Source: Planctomyces sp.
GTDB taxonomy: Bacteria; Planctomycetota; Planctomycetia; Planctomycetales; Planctomycetaceae
NCBI GenBank assembly: GCA_005778115.1
Contig: SXKJ01000160.1
Location: forward strand, 1-35,365
DNA: 35,365 nucleotides
Direction of reading: 5' to 3'
The notes under the pieces are model-generated. The model was given only the letters and a program-made list of their open reading frames with translations, was not told the origin of the DNA and ran no database searches. Made by a program: the position numbers and the translations under genes. Shown here piece by piece: positions 9,045 through 34,669 of the stretch (positions within the stretch are counted from its first letter, which is position 1; every line of letters starts with the position of its first letter).

Positions 9045-9095
9045 TCTCTTGCCCGTTCCTCAAAGGCAGTGACGGGCAGGAGTACCCGTCCTACG
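9045..9095. repeat. Hairpin repeat, family B, degenerate doublet
   Basis: At 9071-9095 a 25-nt unit (GACGGGCA, loop GGAG, TACCCGTC, then CTACG) matches the family B units at 20223-20305 with two changes. A decayed inverted partner, CTCTTGCCCGTTCC, lies at about 9045-9059. It sits just after the stop of the minus-strand glycosyltransferase. Confidence 0.65.
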
Positions 9096-10263: not shown

Positions 10264-10350
10264 AGTTCGTAGTACCGCCTTCAGGCGGAATCAGAGAGAA
10301 TCCAGTTCGTGGATCAGAAATGCTACCGCCTGAAGGCGGAACTACGAACT
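10264..10350. repeat. Hairpin doublet repeat, family C (REPIN-like)
   Basis: Two 27-nt units in inverted orientation (10264-10290 and 10324-10350) that match at 25 of 27 positions. Each contains the palindrome CCGCC-TTCA-GGCGG or its complement flanked by TAGT/ACTA and GAAC strings. They are separated by 33 nt, for a total of 87 bp. It fills most of the gap between the divergently oriented glycosyltransferase and protease genes. Confidence 0.85.
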
Positions 10351-16812: not shown

Positions 16813-16837
16813 TAGTCGGGACGGAGTCCCAACCTAC
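16813..16837. repeat. Hairpin repeat, family A, single unit overlapping the WD40 kinase stop
   Basis: 23 nt of this unit (16815-16837) are identical to the family A units at 19579-19664 (stem GTCGGGAC/GTCCCAAC, loop GGA). On the minus strand the TAG that ends the kinase is the GTAG at the edge of the repeat. No second unit is evident nearby. Confidence 0.85.
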
Positions 16838-19800
16838 GGCTTCCATTCGCGGGCGAATTGCAGGGCGCGTTGGCGGACGGGTTCGCTGAGGGTCTGGTCC
16901 GCCGAGAGGGCGGCGAGCCATTCGGACTGCGGTTGGCCCTGGTCGCGCAGGAAGTGAATCAGACTCAGTGCCTCACGCTCCGCTCGCAACGCCGGAGTCC
17001 ACGAACGAGCGTCCCACACCTTGACCGTCTGATCCCTGCTCGCAGACGCTAGCCGTTTCCCGTCCGCGCTAATCGCCACGCTCCCGACCGCGCCGGTGTG
17101 CTCTTTCAATGTGAGCGTCTCCTGACCACTCGTGGCGTCCCACACCTTCACCGTCCCATCGCCACTTGCCGACACCAACCGTTTCCCGTCTGCGCTAAAC
17201 ACGACACTCGTGACAACACTGTTGTGCCCTTTCAACGTAAGCATCTCCTGACCGCTCGTGGCGTCCCACACTTTCACCGCCTGATCGTCGCTGGCCGACG
17301 CGAGCCGTTTTCCATCCGCGCTAAACGCCACGCTCGTGACCGCGCTGTTGTGCCCTTTCAACGTGAGCATCTCCTGACCGCTCGTGACGTCCCAAATCTT
17401 CACCATCTGATCTGCGCTTGCCGACGCCAGCCGTTTTCCATCCGCGCTAAACACCACACTCCCGACTTGGTTGGTGTGTCCTTTTAGTGTGAGCGTCTCT
17501 CGACCGCTCGTGGCGTCCCACACCTTCACCGTCTGATCCTCGCTTGCGGATGCCAGCCATTTTCCGTCCGAGCTAAACATCACACTCATGACCGCGCCCG
17601 AGTGCCCTTTCAACGCGAGCGTCTCCCGACCAGTCGTGGAGTCCCACACCTTCACCGCCTGATCTGCGCTCGCCGATGCCAGCCGTTTTCCGTCCGCGCT
17701 ATACACCACGCTCAAGACCCGGCGCGTGTGCCCATTCAACGTGAGCGTCTCCTGACCGTTCGTGACGTCCCACACCTTCACCGTTTGATCTTCGCTGGCT
17801 GATGCCAAATGTGTTCCGTTCTCACTGAAATTGGCGCACCAAACTGGGCCGCGGTGGCCTTTCAACGTAAGAGGTTTCTGATCGCTCGTCATGTCCGACG
17901 CATTCACCACGAGATCCCAGATTTTCACATTATTATTCGTTGCGGCAGCCAACTGTTTTCCATCTCGGCTAAATGCCACACGGTGGATGAAACCGGTGAA
18001 TCGTTTCATCGTCAGATCTTCCTGACCGCTCACAGCGTCCCACACCTTCACCGTCTCCCAACTTGTCGATGCGAGCCGCTTCCCGTCCGCGCTAAACGCC
18101 ACGCTATTGACCCTGCCGCCATACTCTTTCAACGTGAGCGTCTCCTCACCACTCATGGCGTCCCATACCTTCACCGTCTGATCCCAACTGCCCGACGCCA
18201 ACCGTTTCCCATCCGTGCTAAAAGCGACGCTCGTCACGCCGCCGATGTGCCCTTTCAATGTGAGCGTCTCTTGACCGCTCGTGGCGTCCCACAACTTCAC
18301 CGTCTGATCCTCGCTGGCCGACGCCAGCCACTTCCCGTCCGCGCTAAATGCCACACTCTCGACCCGGCCGGTGTGCCCTTTCAATGTGACCATCTCCTTG
18401 CCGCTCGTGGCATCCCACAACTTTACCGTCCCATCGAAGCTGGCGGACGCCAGCCATTTTCCGTCCGCGCTAAACGCCACGTCATCGACAATGTCGGAGT
18501 GCCCTTTCAACGTGAGCGTCTCTTGACCGCTCGTGGCGTCCCACAGCTTCACCGTCCGATCATAGCTTGTCGCTGCCAGCCATTTCCCGTCCGGGCTAAA
18601 CGCCACGCTCCAGACACTGCTCCCCTGCACTTTCAACGTAAGCGTTTCCTGACCGCTCGTGGTGTCCCACACCTTCACCATCTCATCCAAGCTCGCCGTC
18701 GCCAGCCGTTTCCCGTCCGCGCTAAACGCCACGCGCGTGACCTGGCTTCTGTGCCCTTTCAATTCGAGCATGTGAGAATGACAGAGCCGATGCCAGTAAC
18801 TCCACTCGAAGCCGCGATAATCCTCGGCCCCCGTGTGCTGCGGGCTACTTTGCTCAAGCCGTTCAAGCACAGAGTTGATTTCACCGAGTTCCCATTCCCG
18901 CCTCGCAAGATTCATCTGAGCCACATAAAGCTGATGACTCAATTCTACCGCGTTGTCATCAGCGCGATCCTTCTCACGCCGTGCCCGTGTTGCATTGACC
19001 ACTGCGGCTGCGGCGTGTGTGTTGGCATTGATTGCGAATAACGAAGAGATAGAAATGCCGGCGAGCAGTACGATGACAACCGCCGCGCTCAATGACGCGA
19101 CGGCTGGGTTGCGGTGACACCAGCGCCAGGCTCGTTCCGTGCGACTGACCGGGCGGGCTTGGATGGGATGGCCGGTGAGCCAGCGGCGGAGGTCGGCGGC
19201 GAGGGCGGCGGCGGACTGGTAGCGTCGGGCGGGGTCTTTCTCCAGGCACTTCAGGCAGATCGTCTCGACATCGCGGGGCAGGCGCGCGTCCAGCTTTCGC
19301 AAGGCGGGCGGCTCTTCGTTCAGAATTTGCACGATCAGCATTTGACGCTGGCCGCGGAACGGCAGTTCGCCGGTCAGCAGGCGGAACAGAATCACGCCCA
19401 GCGAGTACACGTCGCTGCGGCGGTCGGCGTGATGCGCCTCGCCGCGAGCTTGCTCCGGAGGCATGTACGCCGGAGTGCCGAGGATTGCGCCCTCGATCGT
19501 CATCGTGATTTCGCCCGCGTCGCGTTTGGCGAGGCCGAAGTCAGTTATGAAAGGAGTGAGGGTGGAGGCGTGAGGATCGTAGGTTGGGACTCCGTCCCGA
19601 CCTGACTTGGTGCTGGGATTCGCGCTGTCGTTGGGAATTGGGTCGGGACGGAGTCCCAACCTACTCTGAACCAGAATGTTTTGGGGCTTGAGGTCGCGAT
19701 GGACGACGCCGGCTTCGTGGGCGTGATGCAGGGCTTCGGCGATCGTTGCACACAACTCGACCGATTCTCGAACGGTCAGCGGGTGAACTTGAATCCAATC

Positions 19801-20217
19801 GTCGAGGCTGGCTCCGTCGATGAAGTCGCTGGCGATATAGATGCGGCCGTCCTCACGGCCGACTTCGTGGACTGAGACGATGTTTGGATGCCGCACCTGC
19901 GCGGCGGCTCGCGCTTCGCGCAGAAACTTTTCGGCGTCAGCTTCGGTGAGGTTTTCTTTTCTTGGAATCTTGATCGCCACGATGCGATCGAGTTTTGTGT
20001 CGCGAGCTTTCCAAACGGTGCCGAAGGCTCCTTGGCCCAGGCAGTTCAGCAACTGGAAATGGCCGAGCATCTTGGCGGGTGGGCCATCGGTAGTCAGGGT
20101 CTGCCCGTCCTTCGCCAGATTGAAACAACTACCGCACGACGGACACGACACGTCGCCAGACGGGTCGTCGTTGACGACGTCGATCGGATTGTGGCAGTGC
20201 GGACAACGAACTTGCAT
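16834..20217 (-). CDS. Membrane Ser/Thr protein kinase with zinc ribbon and 14 WD40 blades
   Basis: 1127 residues. A zinc ribbon (Cys5, Cys8, Cys25, Cys28) leads to a Hanks-type kinase domain with GQGAFG at 61-66, Lys83, HRDLKPQN at 173-180 and DFG at 226-228, followed by GTPAYMPPEQA. A membrane helix (about 372-396) precedes a heptad-rich stalk. Fourteen WD40 repeats (about 484-1077, consensus VAFSADGKRLASASxDQTVKVWDATSGQETL) should form two seven-blade propellers on the far side of the membrane, and a helical tail follows. Between the catalytic loop and DFG there are about 40 extra residues (about 184-223) encoded by a family A repeat doublet. The frame is open upstream to a TTG at 20265, but those residues are encoded by another repeat, so I place the start at ATG 20217. 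Activity with the insertion is uncertain. Confidence 0.9.
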   Translation of the reverse strand: MQVRCPHCHNPIDVVNDDPSGDVSCPSCGSCFNLAKDGQTLTTDGPPAKMLGHFQLLNCLGQGAFGTVWKARDTKLDRIVAIKIPRKENLTEADAEKFLREARAAAQVRHPNIVSVHEVGREDGRIYIASDFIDGASLDDWIQVHPLTVRESVELCATIAEALHHAHEAGVVHRDLKPQNILVQSRLGLRPDPIPNDSANPSTKSGRDGVPTYDPHASTLTPFITDFGLAKRDAGEITMTIEGAILGTPAYMPPEQARGEAHHADRRSDVYSLGVILFRLLTGELPFRGQRQMLIVQILNEEPPALRKLDARLPRDVETICLKCLEKDPARRYQSAAALAADLRRWLTGHPIQARPVSRTERAWRWCHRNPAVASLSAAVVIVLLAGISISSLFAINANTHAAAAVVNATRARREKDRADDNAVELSHQLYVAQMNLARREWELGEINSVLERLEQSSPQHTGAEDYRGFEWSYWHRLCHSHMLELKGHRSQVTRVAFSADGKRLATASLDEMVKVWDTTSGQETLTLKVQGSSVWSVAFSPDGKWLAATSYDRTVKLWDATSGQETLTLKGHSDIVDDVAFSADGKWLASASFDGTVKLWDATSGKEMVTLKGHTGRVESVAFSADGKWLASASEDQTVKLWDATSGQETLTLKGHIGGVTSVAFSTDGKRLASGSWDQTVKVWDAMSGEETLTLKEYGGRVNSVAFSADGKRLASTSWETVKVWDAVSGQEDLTMKRFTGFIHRVAFSRDGKQLAAATNNNVKIWDLVVNASDMTSDQKPLTLKGHRGPVWCANFSENGTHLASASEDQTVKVWDVTNGQETLTLNGHTRRVLSVVYSADGKRLASASADQAVKVWDSTTGRETLALKGHSGAVMSVMFSSDGKWLASASEDQTVKVWDATSGRETLTLKGHTNQVGSVVFSADGKRLASASADQMVKIWDVTSGQEMLTLKGHNSAVTSVAFSADGKRLASASDDQAVKVWDATSGQEMLTLKGHNSVVTSVVFSADGKRLVSASGDGTVKVWDATSGQETLTLKEHTGAVGSVAISADGKRLASASRDQTVKVWDARSWTPALRAEREALSLIHFLRDQGQPQSEWLAALSADQTLSEPVRQRALQFAREWKP
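19579..19664. repeat. Hairpin doublet repeat, family A (REPIN-like), inside kinase coding sequence
   Basis: Two perfectly inverted 24-nt units (19579-19602 and 19641-19664) separated by 38 nt, total 86 bp. Each unit is a hairpin with stem GGTTGGGAC/GTCCCGACC (one G-U pair) and loop TCC, flanked by GTA/TAC. It lies between the kinase HRD and DFG codons and is translated through in frame (LGLRPDPIPNDSAN, then SGRDGVPTYDP). Confidence 0.92.
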
Positions 20218-20222
20218 GATGG

Positions 20223-20305
20223 CGTAGGATGGGCACTCCTGCCCGTCCGCCTTTTTGCGAGACAACGAAGGAACCGCAGGGACGGGCAGGAGTGCCCATC
20301 CTACG
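20223..20305. repeat. Hairpin doublet repeat, family B (REPIN-like), in the WD40 kinase leader
   Basis: Two perfectly inverted 26-nt units (20223-20248 and 20280-20305) separated by 31 nt, total 83 bp. Each unit has stem GGATGGGCA/TGCCCGTCC (one G-U pair) and loop CTCC, flanked by CGTA/TACG. It ends six bases before the kinase ATG and so forms its leader. Confidence 0.92.
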
Positions 20306-20357
20306 TCACGCTAAGAATCCGTGAATCAAGAGACAACTCACCGCAGACGCTGGGCGA

Positions 20358-30971: not shown

Positions 30972-32417
30972 TCACGAGCCATCGAATGGTTGCAGCGCGA
31001 GCCGAAACTCGCGGACGGACGGGAAGCGATCTTCGGGCTCGCGGGAGAGTCCGCGATGAATCGCATCCGCCAAGTCCGCGGGGATGTCTGAACGACGCTG
31101 AGTGATCGGGATTGGTGCCTCTTGCAAGATCATCAGGATTTGCTCGGACAGCGACTTGGGGAACTCGTAGATGTTCTGCCGAGTCAGGAGATGATAGAGC
31201 GACGCGGCGGACGAATACTGATCGACCGCCGGCTTGGAATCACGAAAGCTCGTGATCTGTTCGGGGGCCATGAATGGCGTCGTGCCGCCGATGGCTCCCG
31301 TCATGGTCAGGCCACTCAGTCGTGACGCTTGGAAGGTGCGAGCCAATCCGAAATCGGACAGCCGCGCGAACTCCACGCCGTTGGGAAGTTGCTCCACCAG
31401 CAAGTTCGACGGCTTGATGTCGCGATGCACGAACCCGCGCGCGTGAGCCTCTTCCAAGCCCTTGAGCATTTGCACGGTCAGTCGCACGGCTCGCGAAATC
31501 GGCATCGGCGACCTCGCTTCGTCCAGCAACCGCGCGGCATCGAGTCCAGGGACATAGTCCATCGCGAAGTACACCACGCCCTTCGATTCGCCGACATCTC
31601 GGCAGCGGACGATGTGCGGATGGTCGAGCGACTTCAGAATGCTCGCCTCTCGCAGAAACTTCAAATAGTCCCGCTGCGTGCCGCGGTTCGTTGGTGAAAT
31701 CGTTTTGATGGCCACGACCGATTGGTTGGCCTGGCAAATGGCGCGATACACGGCCCCCTTCGATCCGCGACCAAGTTCATCCACGATCAGATAGACAGCC
31801 AACGGCTGCGGACGTTGTTGGATGAAGTCTTGATAATTCGCCGGTAACAACCGCTCGATGTCATACGGACTGAGTCGCCCCACCAGTGCGGTGACAAACT
31901 CGGGCGCGGTTCCTGGCTGCCCGCCGACAGCGTCTAGCGAAAGAATGGGGGTACGTGGCCAGACTCCAACTGAGAATTGGCTCGGCAGGATTTCGGAGGG
32001 GGACTCTCCGAACGCCGCTTCGTCGAGCGTCTGTGTTGCCGATCCCGGCGCGAGTGAGTTCGGGGGGTTCCCTCGTTCGATACTCGAAGAGTATTGACCA
32101 TCGTCGATCGTCGCGTCCTCGGAGATCGAGACTTTCAACACAGTCAGCCCGCCACAGATTTCGTCGTCATCTTTGAGTTCGACCGACTCGACTCTCTCCG
32201 AGTTGACGAACGTGCCATTGCGGCTACCCATATCCAGCAACCGGCACAGCGGCGGATTGACCTCGATCAGAAAATGATTGCGTGAGAAATACACATCATC
32301 CTTCGGCAATCGAAACTGCGCCTTCTTCGATCTTCCGACGATGAAGTTCTGATGCTCCTCAAACGAAAACTCGCGCCCCACATGTGGTCCGGCCGTGATG
32401 GTCAGCGTGATTCGCAT
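30972..32417 (-). CDS. FHA-domain Ser/Thr protein kinase
   Basis: 481 residues. The N-terminal FHA domain (about 1-95; FIVGRSKKAQFRL, FSRNHFLIEV, DMGSRNGTFVN) precedes a low-complexity linker. A kinase domain (about 210-475) follows, with GRGSKGAVY, VAIKTI, HRDIKPSNLL, DFGLAR and TTPFMAPEQ. No membrane helix is seen, so it is probably cytosolic. FHA before kinase is a known planctomycete and actinobacterial layout for self- or partner-recognition. AGAGG precedes the ATG. It starts just downstream of a large hairpin repeat and of the broken kinase gene. Confidence 0.9.
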   Translation of the reverse strand: MRITLTITAGPHVGREFSFEEHQNFIVGRSKKAQFRLPKDDVYFSRNHFLIEVNPPLCRLLDMGSRNGTFVNSERVESVELKDDDEICGGLTVLKVSISEDATIDDGQYSSSIERGNPPNSLAPGSATQTLDEAAFGESPSEILPSQFSVGVWPRTPILSLDAVGGQPGTAPEFVTALVGRLSPYDIERLLPANYQDFIQQRPQPLAVYLIVDELGRGSKGAVYRAICQANQSVVAIKTISPTNRGTQRDYLKFLREASILKSLDHPHIVRCRDVGESKGVVYFAMDYVPGLDAARLLDEARSPMPISRAVRLTVQMLKGLEEAHARGFVHRDIKPSNLLVEQLPNGVEFARLSDFGLARTFQASRLSGLTMTGAIGGTTPFMAPEQITSFRDSKPAVDQYSSAASLYHLLTRQNIYEFPKSLSEQILMILQEAPIPITQRRSDIPADLADAIHRGLSREPEDRFPSVREFRLALQPFDGS

Positions 32418-32466: not shown

Positions 32467-32526
32467 TTAGCACGACGCGTAAACGAGTGGCACGCACACA
32501 GATCACTCGCTTGCGCGTCGTGCTAA
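32467..32526. repeat. Large hairpin repeat, family E
   Basis: Two 23-nt arms (32467-32489 and 32504-32526) that pair with one G-U and one mismatch around a 14-nt loop. The arms begin TTAGCACGACGCG and end GTCGTGCTAA. It fills the gap between the two kinase genes and has no T-run on either side. Confidence 0.85.
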
Positions 32527-32560: not shown

Positions 32561-34540
32561 TCAGTCAGGTCGACTCCATCGACCGACTTCCTTCCCTCCC
32601 TGCTTGGCCACAATCTCGTCGTCCAAGATCTCGACCGCGACCGCCGGGTTGTTCCCTTTCTTCAGCGTAAATTTCTCGGTGTCAAACTCGACGTCGCCGG
32701 ACTTGATATGCAGCGTGTGATCGCCGGGTATGAGCTTGTATTCGTGATCGCCCTCTTTGAGTTCGATGGTCTCATCGTCGAACGCGACCTGCACGTCCTT
32801 GGAATGAAGCTCAATCCTGACCAGTGCATCGCCGTGGCGGAACCAGAGCGGGACGGCCAGCAGTAACAACGCTCCGAAGCCGACCACCGCCAGTGACAGT
32901 GCGAGTTTCTTGCCTTGCTTCTGCTTGGGGACGGGAGCGGCCTTTGTGACGAAGGTGGGCTCATCGGCGAAGTCCGGGAACCCGGAAGTGGTGCTCGGCG
33001 ATTCGTCTTTGGGAGCGGGAGGTGTTGGCACCTTGGTAGGCGTGAGGTCGGTTTTGCGTTCGGGTGGCGTGTTCGGATTGGGCGGGGCACTGATGTCGCC
33101 GGATCGTCTGAATTCGGCTTTTTTGGAGGCACTGTAGTCGGCGAGCGTCGTGGCGAACTCGGTCATGGTCGGGTAGCGATCCGCGTGATGTTTCGCGATG
33201 GCCTTGAGGACGATCGCTTCCAAAACAGGATCGAGATCGCGGCGATGCATCGTCGGTGGATCAGGTGGCGTCGTGAGGATCTTGGCGAAGAGCGCCGTTA
33301 CGGGTGCATCCGGTGCCACGTCGAACGGGAGATGTGCCGTCAGCAGTTCGTAGAAGATCACTCCCAAGCTGTAGACGTCACTGTGAGGGCCAATGTCGTC
33401 CAAGTTCCCGTGGAGTTGTTCCAGCGACATGTACGCGGGCGTGCCGATGATCATGCCGTTTTTTGTCAGCCGCTGATCGCGCACGCCGATCTTGCGAGCG
33501 AGTCCAAAGTCAGTGACCTTCGGTTTGCCGTCGGTCGTCACCATGATGTTCGCAGGTTTGAGATCGCGATGAATGATCCCCTGCTTGTGGGCGGTCCCGA
33601 CGGCCTGCGCGACTTGGCGAACCAACTGCACCACCGCCAAATCTTTGAGACCTTTCGAGCCCACCAGCTTGGTGAGCGGTTTACCGTCGATGTATTCCAT
33701 CGTCAGGTAGCGGCGGCCGTCGATCTCGCCAACGTCGAAGACCTAACAGATGTAGGCATGCGAGAGCTTCGCAGCGGTCTTGGCTTCACGATCAAAGCGT
33801 TCGAGTTCATCGGAGTCATTCGCCGCGCTGACATGCGGCACCTTGAGCGCGACTTCGCGATCCAGTTGCGTATCCAAAGCGAGATAAACTGTCCCCATGC
33901 CTCCGTCGCCGAGTTCTCGCAGGATGCGGTAACGGCCGAAGACCTTCGGCAGTTCCTTGCGCGGAGCATCTGACAAAGAACCGGCGAGCGGGCCGGCGTC
34001 AGCCCCTCGGTCTTTCGACGACTCCTTCCCGTCCGGCGGACGAACCACCCCTCGCTCGACGCCGGGCGTGGTGGCGGAACCCAAACTGATGACCTTGGAA
34101 GTATCTCGTTTGGCGACTTTGCGCTGTACGGGCTCCTGGGCTTCCACCTGGCGGATGAGCTGTTGCAGTTCCGGCGCTTGCTTGGGGAATCGTCTCGCGA
34201 AATCCCCGAACCGAGGCGGCTCACCAAACTGCCGACGAGCTTCCCATTCCACGAAGAGCAACAACGAGGAAACGGTTTCGGTCGTGCCGAGGTCCGGAAA
34301 CCGCCTGAGGTATTGTTCGATCTCGGTGTTTTGCCCCGACTGCCAACGGCGATCGAGGTCGATCTCCACCAGTTCAGCGAGCGCTCGCCGGCGTGATTCG
34401 GGCGACCAACTAGCAAGCTCGGCCGAGAAGATGTCGATTTGCCCCGCGTCCCAGTTTTGTTCAAAGCGCAACCTGAGATCGGCGATCCGATCCGAGTCGG
34501 ACCGAGCAACGGGCAGTTCCGACTTCGGTGGCGTAGCCAT
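32561..34540 (-). pseudogene. Membrane Ser/Thr kinase interrupted by an amber codon
   Basis: One frame of 660 codons. Residues 1-265 carry a helical N-terminal region with an RRFP motif, a linker, and the kinase N-lobe (GDGGMGTVY, Lys233). Codon 266 is TAG (33745-33743). The same frame continues VFDVGEIDGRRYLTMEYIDG, HRDLKPAN (His324), DFGLAR and GTPAYMSLEQ. A Pro/Thr-rich linker, a membrane helix (SLAVVGFGALLLLAVPLWF) and an extracytoplasmic tail follow. CAG-to-TAG at the usual ICQV position would explain the break. Translation would stop before the catalytic loop, and the ATG at 33700 downstream lacks the ATP-binding lobe. A family F repeat is embedded in the linker (residues 179-187). Confidence 0.85.
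33983..34005. repeat. Family F repeat inside kinase coding sequence
   Basis: GGCGAGCGGG followed by CCGGCGTCAGCCC, one mismatch from the copies at 17-39 and 34634-34656. It is translated as GADAGPLAG in the linker between the helical region and the kinase domain. Confidence 0.75.
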
Positions 34541-34633
34541 GCTGGTCTCGTGGTGCTTTCAGCAACGTTTGAGCAGCTGTTTTGAATTGATGTGAGTTTA
34601 CGAATCAAGCACCCCAGCGAAAGTTTTGAGCCT

Positions 34634-34656
34634 GGCGAGCGGGGCGGCGTCAGCCC
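34634..34656. repeat. Family F repeat beside the transposase 3' end
   Basis: Exact reverse complement of the copy at 17-39. It lies 14 bases past the transposase stop and could belong to the end of that element or be independent of it. Confidence 0.8.
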
Positions 34657-34669
34657 AATGGCACTTACT

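Follow-up and report, generated by a model that had tools for sequence, protein, structure and literature searches.

REPINs are said, following work by Bertels and Rainey in 2011, to be two REPs inverted as one unit and to involve RAYT transposases. Palindromic elements of Rickettsia (RPEs) were reportedly described by Ogata and colleagues in 2000. Hairpins inside genes are a known kind of insertion, both as intragenic GTAG REPs and as the Rickettsia elements. GTAG REPs have stems of 5-13 bp and loops of 2-20, and Planctomycetes are among their hosts (Di Nocera et al. 2013, PMC3733652). Some of these REPs are intragenic and some of those lie in frame, the TAG of the tag can serve as a stop codon, and different REPs occupy about the same recB site in two Xanthomonas species (PMC3733652). 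RPEs, mobile palindromes of about 105-146 bp, lie in frame within genes of conserved proteins, where they are tolerated; their repeat identity is said to fade with age (PMC2229807, PMC6649704). A guanylate kinase with an RPE insert is reported to be active with a changed affinity (PMC2229807). Nematomorph mitochondria carry coding perfect inverted repeats of up to 142 bp per arm that are scattered over genes (PMC6649704).

Here we describe a Hanks-type kinase gene of a planctomycete whose β7-β8 turn is filled, in frame, by a doublet of a multi-copy hairpin unit (unit A), and whose orthologues are either empty at this turn or filled by unrelated hairpin families. The gene lies in the window, the whole stretch of 35,365 nucleotides that was analysed, which is contig C117 of a genome of 7.43 Mb in 515 contigs. 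We consider it likely that a GTAG-REP doublet inserted into this gene, that such hairpins insert widely, and that selection keeps the in-frame copies in permissive turns, this one above all.

In tag, stem-loop, copies, inverted dimers, in-frame cases and TAG stop, unit A resembles the GTAG REPs as the used parts of PMC3733652 present them. What sets the present case apart is that, across many genes and species, several unrelated families fill a single turn of the kinase fold; the text of that paper that was searched names no kinase. Like the RPEs, the unit-A doublet is a mobile-type palindrome in frame in a conserved protein gene, but its sequence is different, to judge from their description, and its arms are identical in several orthologues, with decayed exceptions. 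The perfect inverted repeats of nematomorph mitochondria also lie inside protein genes and are kept perfect, but the part of the source used here does not present them as a mobile repeat family that occupies one turn. We found no report of hairpins in kinase loops in the open-licence papers searched. Repeated use of one kinase turn by unrelated families looks new, and the literature searched gave no precedent for arms that remain identical as their spacers diverge.

A REP doublet within the kinase domain

The open reading frame of the kinase (16834-20265, minus strand) opens at a TTG at 20265 and stays open through the doublet; the ATG at 20217 is the likelier start (Table 1). With numbering from the ATG at 20217, the HRD motif starts at residue 173 (nt 19701) and DFG at residue 226 (nt 19542). 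The doublet lies between them and reads HRDLKPQNILVQ-SRLGLRPDPIPNDSANPSTKSGRDGVPTY-DPHASTLTPFITDFGLA in the kinase frame. The PF00069 match (161.9 bits against a cut-off of 31.7) spans the element, and the HRD, K, N and DFG columns are invariant around the insert. The relatives of the window are planctomycetes.

Table 1. Features of the kinase gene and its unit-A elements (window coordinates).
Feature	Position	Strand	Basis
Hanks-type Ser/Thr kinase gene with C-terminal WD40 region	16834..20217	(-)	ORF and profile match
Pkinase domain PF00069, broken in the β7-β8 turn by the doublet	19198..20055	(-)	profile match
Catalytic loop and β7, HRDLKPQNILV	19669..19701	(-)	sequence, alignment
Unit-A REP doublet (REPIN-like), 86 nt, encodes residues 185-213	19579..19664	(-)	inverted-repeat search and ORF
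First arm, coding strand, GTAGGTTGGGACTCCGTCCCGACC	19641..19664	(-)	inverted-repeat search
38-nt spacer between the arms	19603..19640	(-)	inverted-repeat search
Second arm, coding strand, reverse complement of the first	19579..19602	(-)	inverted-repeat search
DFG motif	19534..19542	(-)	sequence, alignment
Single unit A, 1 mismatch, at the 3' end of the kinase gene	16814..16837	(-)	pattern search

An earlier note, made from the letters of the window, had placed two perfectly inverted 24-nt units with a 38-nt spacer between HRD and DFG in an open kinase frame. The inverted-repeat search recovered exactly these arms, which are 100% complementary, and both the open reading frame and the domain match run across them. 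The size given to the insert needs correction. From HRD to DFGLA this kinase has 58 residues, where 54 of the 70 kinases in the same genome that matched the landmark pattern have 25 (23 loci gave no landmark); of this segment the element itself encodes about 29 residues and not the 40 or so proposed.

The fold of the loop region had been left to prediction. AlphaFold2 (34 sequences) models the kinase domain with a mean pLDDT of 83.1 and a pTM of 0.82. In model numbering β7 spans residues 149-153, β8 residues 188-192 and the insert residues 153-181, of which 158-174 and 176-181 have a pLDDT below 50. The insert is predicted to be a disordered loop in the β7-β8 turn of a confidently folded kinase with an intact core. 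The closest solved relatives are PknB-type Hanks kinases (best by sequence, PknB, 1mru, E 1e-46). In the 60 listed of the 231 matched sequences, the best-matching stretch does not run across the insert: it ends by residue 161 or starts from residue 191, so that it stops ahead of the second half of the insert or begins beyond it.

Unit A and its copies

Read from the sequence, unit A has GTAG at one end followed by nine pairs, one of them G-T, around TCC, and each unit alone forms a small hairpin behind GTAG. By this tag, its short stem-loop, its dispersed copies and its frequent inverted dimers, we classify unit A as a GTAG-tagged REP. The earlier note's reading of the element as a mobile hairpin hung on units elsewhere in the genome, and these are plentiful. 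A search with up to three mismatches finds 91 sites (47 forward, 44 reverse) in 7.43 Mb and none for the reversed-pattern control, so unit A is not a chance match. The loci retrieved contain 54 unit-A elements (≤5 mismatches), 42 of them inverted doublets. Occurrence is patchy, with unit A present in 5 of 61 genomes of the family (22-nt pattern, two mismatches). At the 3' end of the kinase gene, the TAG of the single unit's GTAG (16834-16836) is the stop codon.

The inverted pairing of a multi-copy unit, which bears out the description as a REPIN-like doublet, and the 16 Y1_Tnp matches in the genome recall REPINs. Where a REPIN would have a typical spacer, the spacers of unit-A doublets range between 0 and 186 nt. 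A search for unit A with up to five mismatches in the roughly 1.5 kb around each of the 16 matches, some of them at loci cut by contig ends, found no copy beside a transposase gene. As RNA the doublet is predicted to form a 24-bp stem of -57.3 kcal/mol (z -7.79; 0 of 200 shuffles as stable), in line with the expectation that the palindrome folds in the mRNA.

Unit A also lies in frame in other conserved proteins. There are 20 stop-to-stop reading frames of at least 300 aa that cross a unit-A element; in some instances both strands of a single element are open. All ten that were scanned (the β7-β8 kinases left out) carry Pfam domains. They comprise two kinases, with the unit in a C-lobe loop (L003) or just behind the domain (L016), a cytochrome c protein, a DUF7133 protein, a polyketide synthase, a GDSL lipase with FG-GAP repeats, three planctomycete cytochrome/PSD1 proteins and a GFO/IDH oxidoreductase. 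Two of the scanned hosts (L151, L165) contain a single unit A. Kinases make up 4 of 13 likely real hosts, counting the ten scanned, the two β7-β8 kinases and L170 (without a Pfam scan); P is 0.0005 if the kinase share of genes is 3%, which is an estimate. Annotators should expect REP-encoded peptides in planctomycete proteins.

Unrelated hairpin families in the same turn

Orthologues and paralogues within the genus carry hairpins of at least six families at the β7-β8 turn. Family A (GTAGGTTGGGACTCCGTCCCGACC) occurs there in two kinases of this genome (contigs C117 and C368), the C368 paralogue with a unit-A doublet of its own, and in two of G004. Family B (GTAGCCCGACGCGCAAGCGAGGGG) is found in G009 and G006, family C (GTAGTGACCCCATTCATGGGGT) in G001 and G004, family D (GTAGCCACGCTCGCCAGAGCGTGG) in G000, G001, G007 and G010, family E (GGCGAGCGGGGGGCGTNAGCCCCCCGGT) in G007 and G006, and repeats like family F (GAGGGGCGAGGG) in G010, twice in G006 and in G009. 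In all 12 genomes of the genus, family B has 16-151 sites (control 0-2), family D 25-129 (control 0) and family C 1-305 (control 0); G001 has only seven family C sites, one of which is inside the kinase loop. Genome-wide counts thus cover families A-D, all of which are multi-copy. Labels were assigned by hand, and L035 (score 12) was called C and L036 (score 10) F by eye, below the cut of 13 applied to inverted repeats.

Three more kinases of this genome have loop hairpins (L221, L227, L233). In L233 an in-frame stop sits just behind the hairpin, which indicates that not every hairpin-bearing kinase is a working gene.

An empty-site orthologue, which the earlier note had proposed to look for, is present in the same genus (L040, G002). 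The note had also raised, against its own reading, the case of distant homologues with the same loop and no palindrome; many relatives do have long non-palindromic loops, but these are of other sequence. The loop of the window kinase itself is plainly hairpin-derived. That all long loops without a palindrome are decayed hairpins was considered and rejected, as only some of the 30 such loops fit. Their mean best inverted-repeat score is 6.93 against 6.15 for codon shuffles, and for 8 of the 30 fewer than 10% of codon shuffles score as high. Some loop hairpins (L289, L298, L302, L033, L039, L097) are inverted arrays of near-repeats of about 7 bp, for example GAGAGTT, and not GTAG REPs.

That the insert is an assembly artefact is very improbable. 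The genome is metagenome-derived, is in 515 contigs and carries the unit repeatedly, but the element is shorter than short reads generally are, and separate assemblies show in-frame hairpins at the same turn.

Placement of hairpins across kinase domains

Inverted repeats were scored (+1 match, -2 mismatch, span ≤230, cut-off 13, our own choice) and mapped onto a 296-column profile made from 50 kinases with short loops in this genome. The first set comprises 177 domains, 92 from this genome and 85 from others. It contains 36 strong inverted repeats; a codon-shuffled control (one shuffle per domain) contains two. Nineteen of the 36 lie between columns 146 and 156, with the consensus NilldedgevkllDfG, the β7-β8 turn. 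Eight are in the activation loop (columns 164-171), two in β4-β5 (85-89), two in αD-αE (108-109) and three in the C-lobe, and two are weak and span long stretches. If placement were uniform, 19 of 36 in 10 of 296 columns would have P ~5e-19, and a cautious hand count of separate events (11 of 23 at the turn) gives P 6e-11.

The turn is not the sole target. Exclusive use of the turn was rejected because 11 of the 17 inverted repeats in the 92 kinase domains of this genome lie elsewhere and six at the turn. Kinases picked by similarity cluster more strongly, with 16 of 22 repeats in the loop and the other six in the activation loop, which partly reflects their choice by likeness to the window kinase. 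A second set of 81 domains from 80 loci of named records, which partly overlaps the first (L265, L266, L277 and L292 appear to be contigs already included), has four repeats, all at the turn. One is the G010 orthologue already in the first set (L277), and the others, in a Gemmataceae (L302), a Pirellulaceae (L298) and L289, are weak (score 13-14) short near-tandem repeats.

Such clustering could also arise if a transposase preferred a DNA target common to kinase genes at the turn, making it a hot spot of insertion and not of survival. The flanking DNA is well conserved (HRDLKPxN and DFG codons) and the adjoining activation loop is the second commonest site. We nevertheless regard this as improbable, since by eye the bases beside the insert vary from case to case, the turn is shared by different families and by heptamer-like repeats, and single units and doublets also occur in many other genes.

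We favour survival in permissive turns. Hairpin elements, presumably mobilised by a Y1/RAYT transposase, would insert at numerous sites, and most insertions in the conserved protein core would be lost through selection. Copies with an open frame and a frame-keeping length would survive in surface turns. The β7-β8 turn would be the most permissive place in these kinases, so that unrelated hairpin families pile up there. They would lengthen the turn as a predicted disordered loop and leave HRD, DFG and the fold untouched. The modelled loop is most likely close to neutral for catalysis. Of the two fates that the earlier note had offered, a tolerated insertion is favoured, and nothing shows a new function for the loop.

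It is conceivable, though quite unlikely, that the residues encoded by the hairpin altered how these kinases bind substrates, are regulated or choose partners, and that selection retained them. The turn is near the active site, and inserts are kept in orthologues (family C in two genomes, family D in three, an activation-loop hairpin in five). Against a functional loop, its sequence differs per lineage and is predicted to be disordered, the orthologue L040 has no insert, and the peptides are whatever the repeat spells in that frame.

Under the permissive-turn reading, the hairpins amount to a natural insertion screen. Several families mark the kinase turns that can take up about 20-35 additional residues, and orthologues and paralogues agree in the turn that is marked. 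The system makes it testable how selfish repeats become protein, whether homogenisation or selection holds a 24-bp palindrome in a coding gene, and whether a lineage-specific loop by the active site alters a kinase.

Outside the turn, one orthologous kinase has a family-B-like hairpin in its activation loop in five genomes (L109, L114, L117, L120, L121), starting 12-18 nt behind DFGLA, and a sixth orthologue (L107) has a decayed copy. A hairpin beside a Y1_Tnp match (L072, 1847-1962) resembles the GTAGGTCAGGCTTTCCAGCCTGAC hairpin of the L182 and L191 activation loops. On G000 contigs C7, C46, C494 and C496, several kinases match PF00069 in two pieces that part near profile column 150, a pattern suggestive of large inserts in the activation region.

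History of the inserts

A quick tree of 87 kinase rows was built with the loop excluded; 34 of its 84 inner branches are poorly supported. On this tree at least 10 changes are required to account for where loop hairpins occur and 13 for the family they belong to, gain and loss not being told apart. In the clade of eight around the window kinase, five members have hairpins of families A, B, F, C and C, two have long loops that lack a strong palindrome, and one is empty. The empty member (L040) branches first under midpoint rooting. The clade of the C368 paralogue has family A in three genes and an empty site in one (L088, G001). Filled and empty genes also have different codons ahead of DFG, so the latter half of the turn changed either together with the insertion or later.

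Spacer length, frame and place are the same for the unit-A doublets in C117 and C368. Their spacers agree at 18/38 positions (shuffle P 0.038), and identity of the unit-A spacer against two G004 genes is 20/38 (P 0.003) and 17/38 (P 0.034). Because these spacers are somewhat more alike than chance, the C117 and C368 doublets may not be independent and may go back to a shared source or to gene conversion between the two kinases.

A broader form of this idea is that gene conversion, anchored on HRDLKP/DFGLA DNA, spreads loop cassettes among some 90 paralogous kinases while transposition is rare. About 90 kinase domains do occur in one genome, the spacers of the C117/C368 type agree as above (17-20/38, P 0.003-0.04), and the codons just before DFG are alike among filled genes, e.g. 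P-F/Y-I-T, and unlike those of empty ones. We think it rather unlikely all the same, given the at least six hairpin families at the turn, close orthologues that differ in family while the rest of the domain forms one clade, and a loop likeness across clades that is mainly in the repeats themselves.

Arms appear to be better kept than spacers. When the three filled genes of the C368 clade are compared in pairs, every pair agrees at 48/48 arm positions, compared with 29-35/38 for spacers and 613-653/681 for the gene body. In the activation-loop hairpin of five genomes, 24/24 positions of the left arm and 18/21 of the right are kept, and third positions of the left arm are unchanged at 8/8 against 48/125 in the gene body; these five rows were chosen for an intact palindrome (score over the cut), with L107 left out. 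In L107 the left arm differs at two positions and the right arm has decayed, as have the L091 and L035 hairpins. Either selection on DNA or RNA maintains the hairpin, or the family rewrites the arms, or the effect is weaker than apparent. In insert-bearing kinases the protein sequence is kept: between L026 and L079, 4/227 body codons differ in amino acid and 21/223 silently.

Permissiveness alone does not explain identical arms with drifting spacers. Other points against the permissive-turn reading are the absence of unit A within about 1.5 kb of the Y1_Tnp matches, the stop in L233, the related C117 and C368 spacers, and our own cut-off and labels. Tentatively, the turn could be a standing landing pad where mobile hairpins of unrelated families supplant each other, so that every lineage has a loop of its own by the active site, and where rewriting of the arms by the genome-wide family keeps a live palindrome in a working gene. 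We hold this to be rather unlikely.

Other hairpins and kinases in the window

The window contains further hairpins. Immediately upstream of the likely kinase ATG there is a doublet of another GTAG-like family (20220-20308), with 29-nt arms that are 97% complementary and separated by 31 nt; the unit of this doublet has a further copy at 9066-9095. Of the hairpins at 10264-10350 and 32467-32526, one is like the L187/L227 kinase repeat and one belongs to family B. Family E units occur at 16-40, 33975-34011 and 34633-34657. The window also encodes two more kinase domains (31023-31787 and 33308-33931), the second with a TAG inside its frame.
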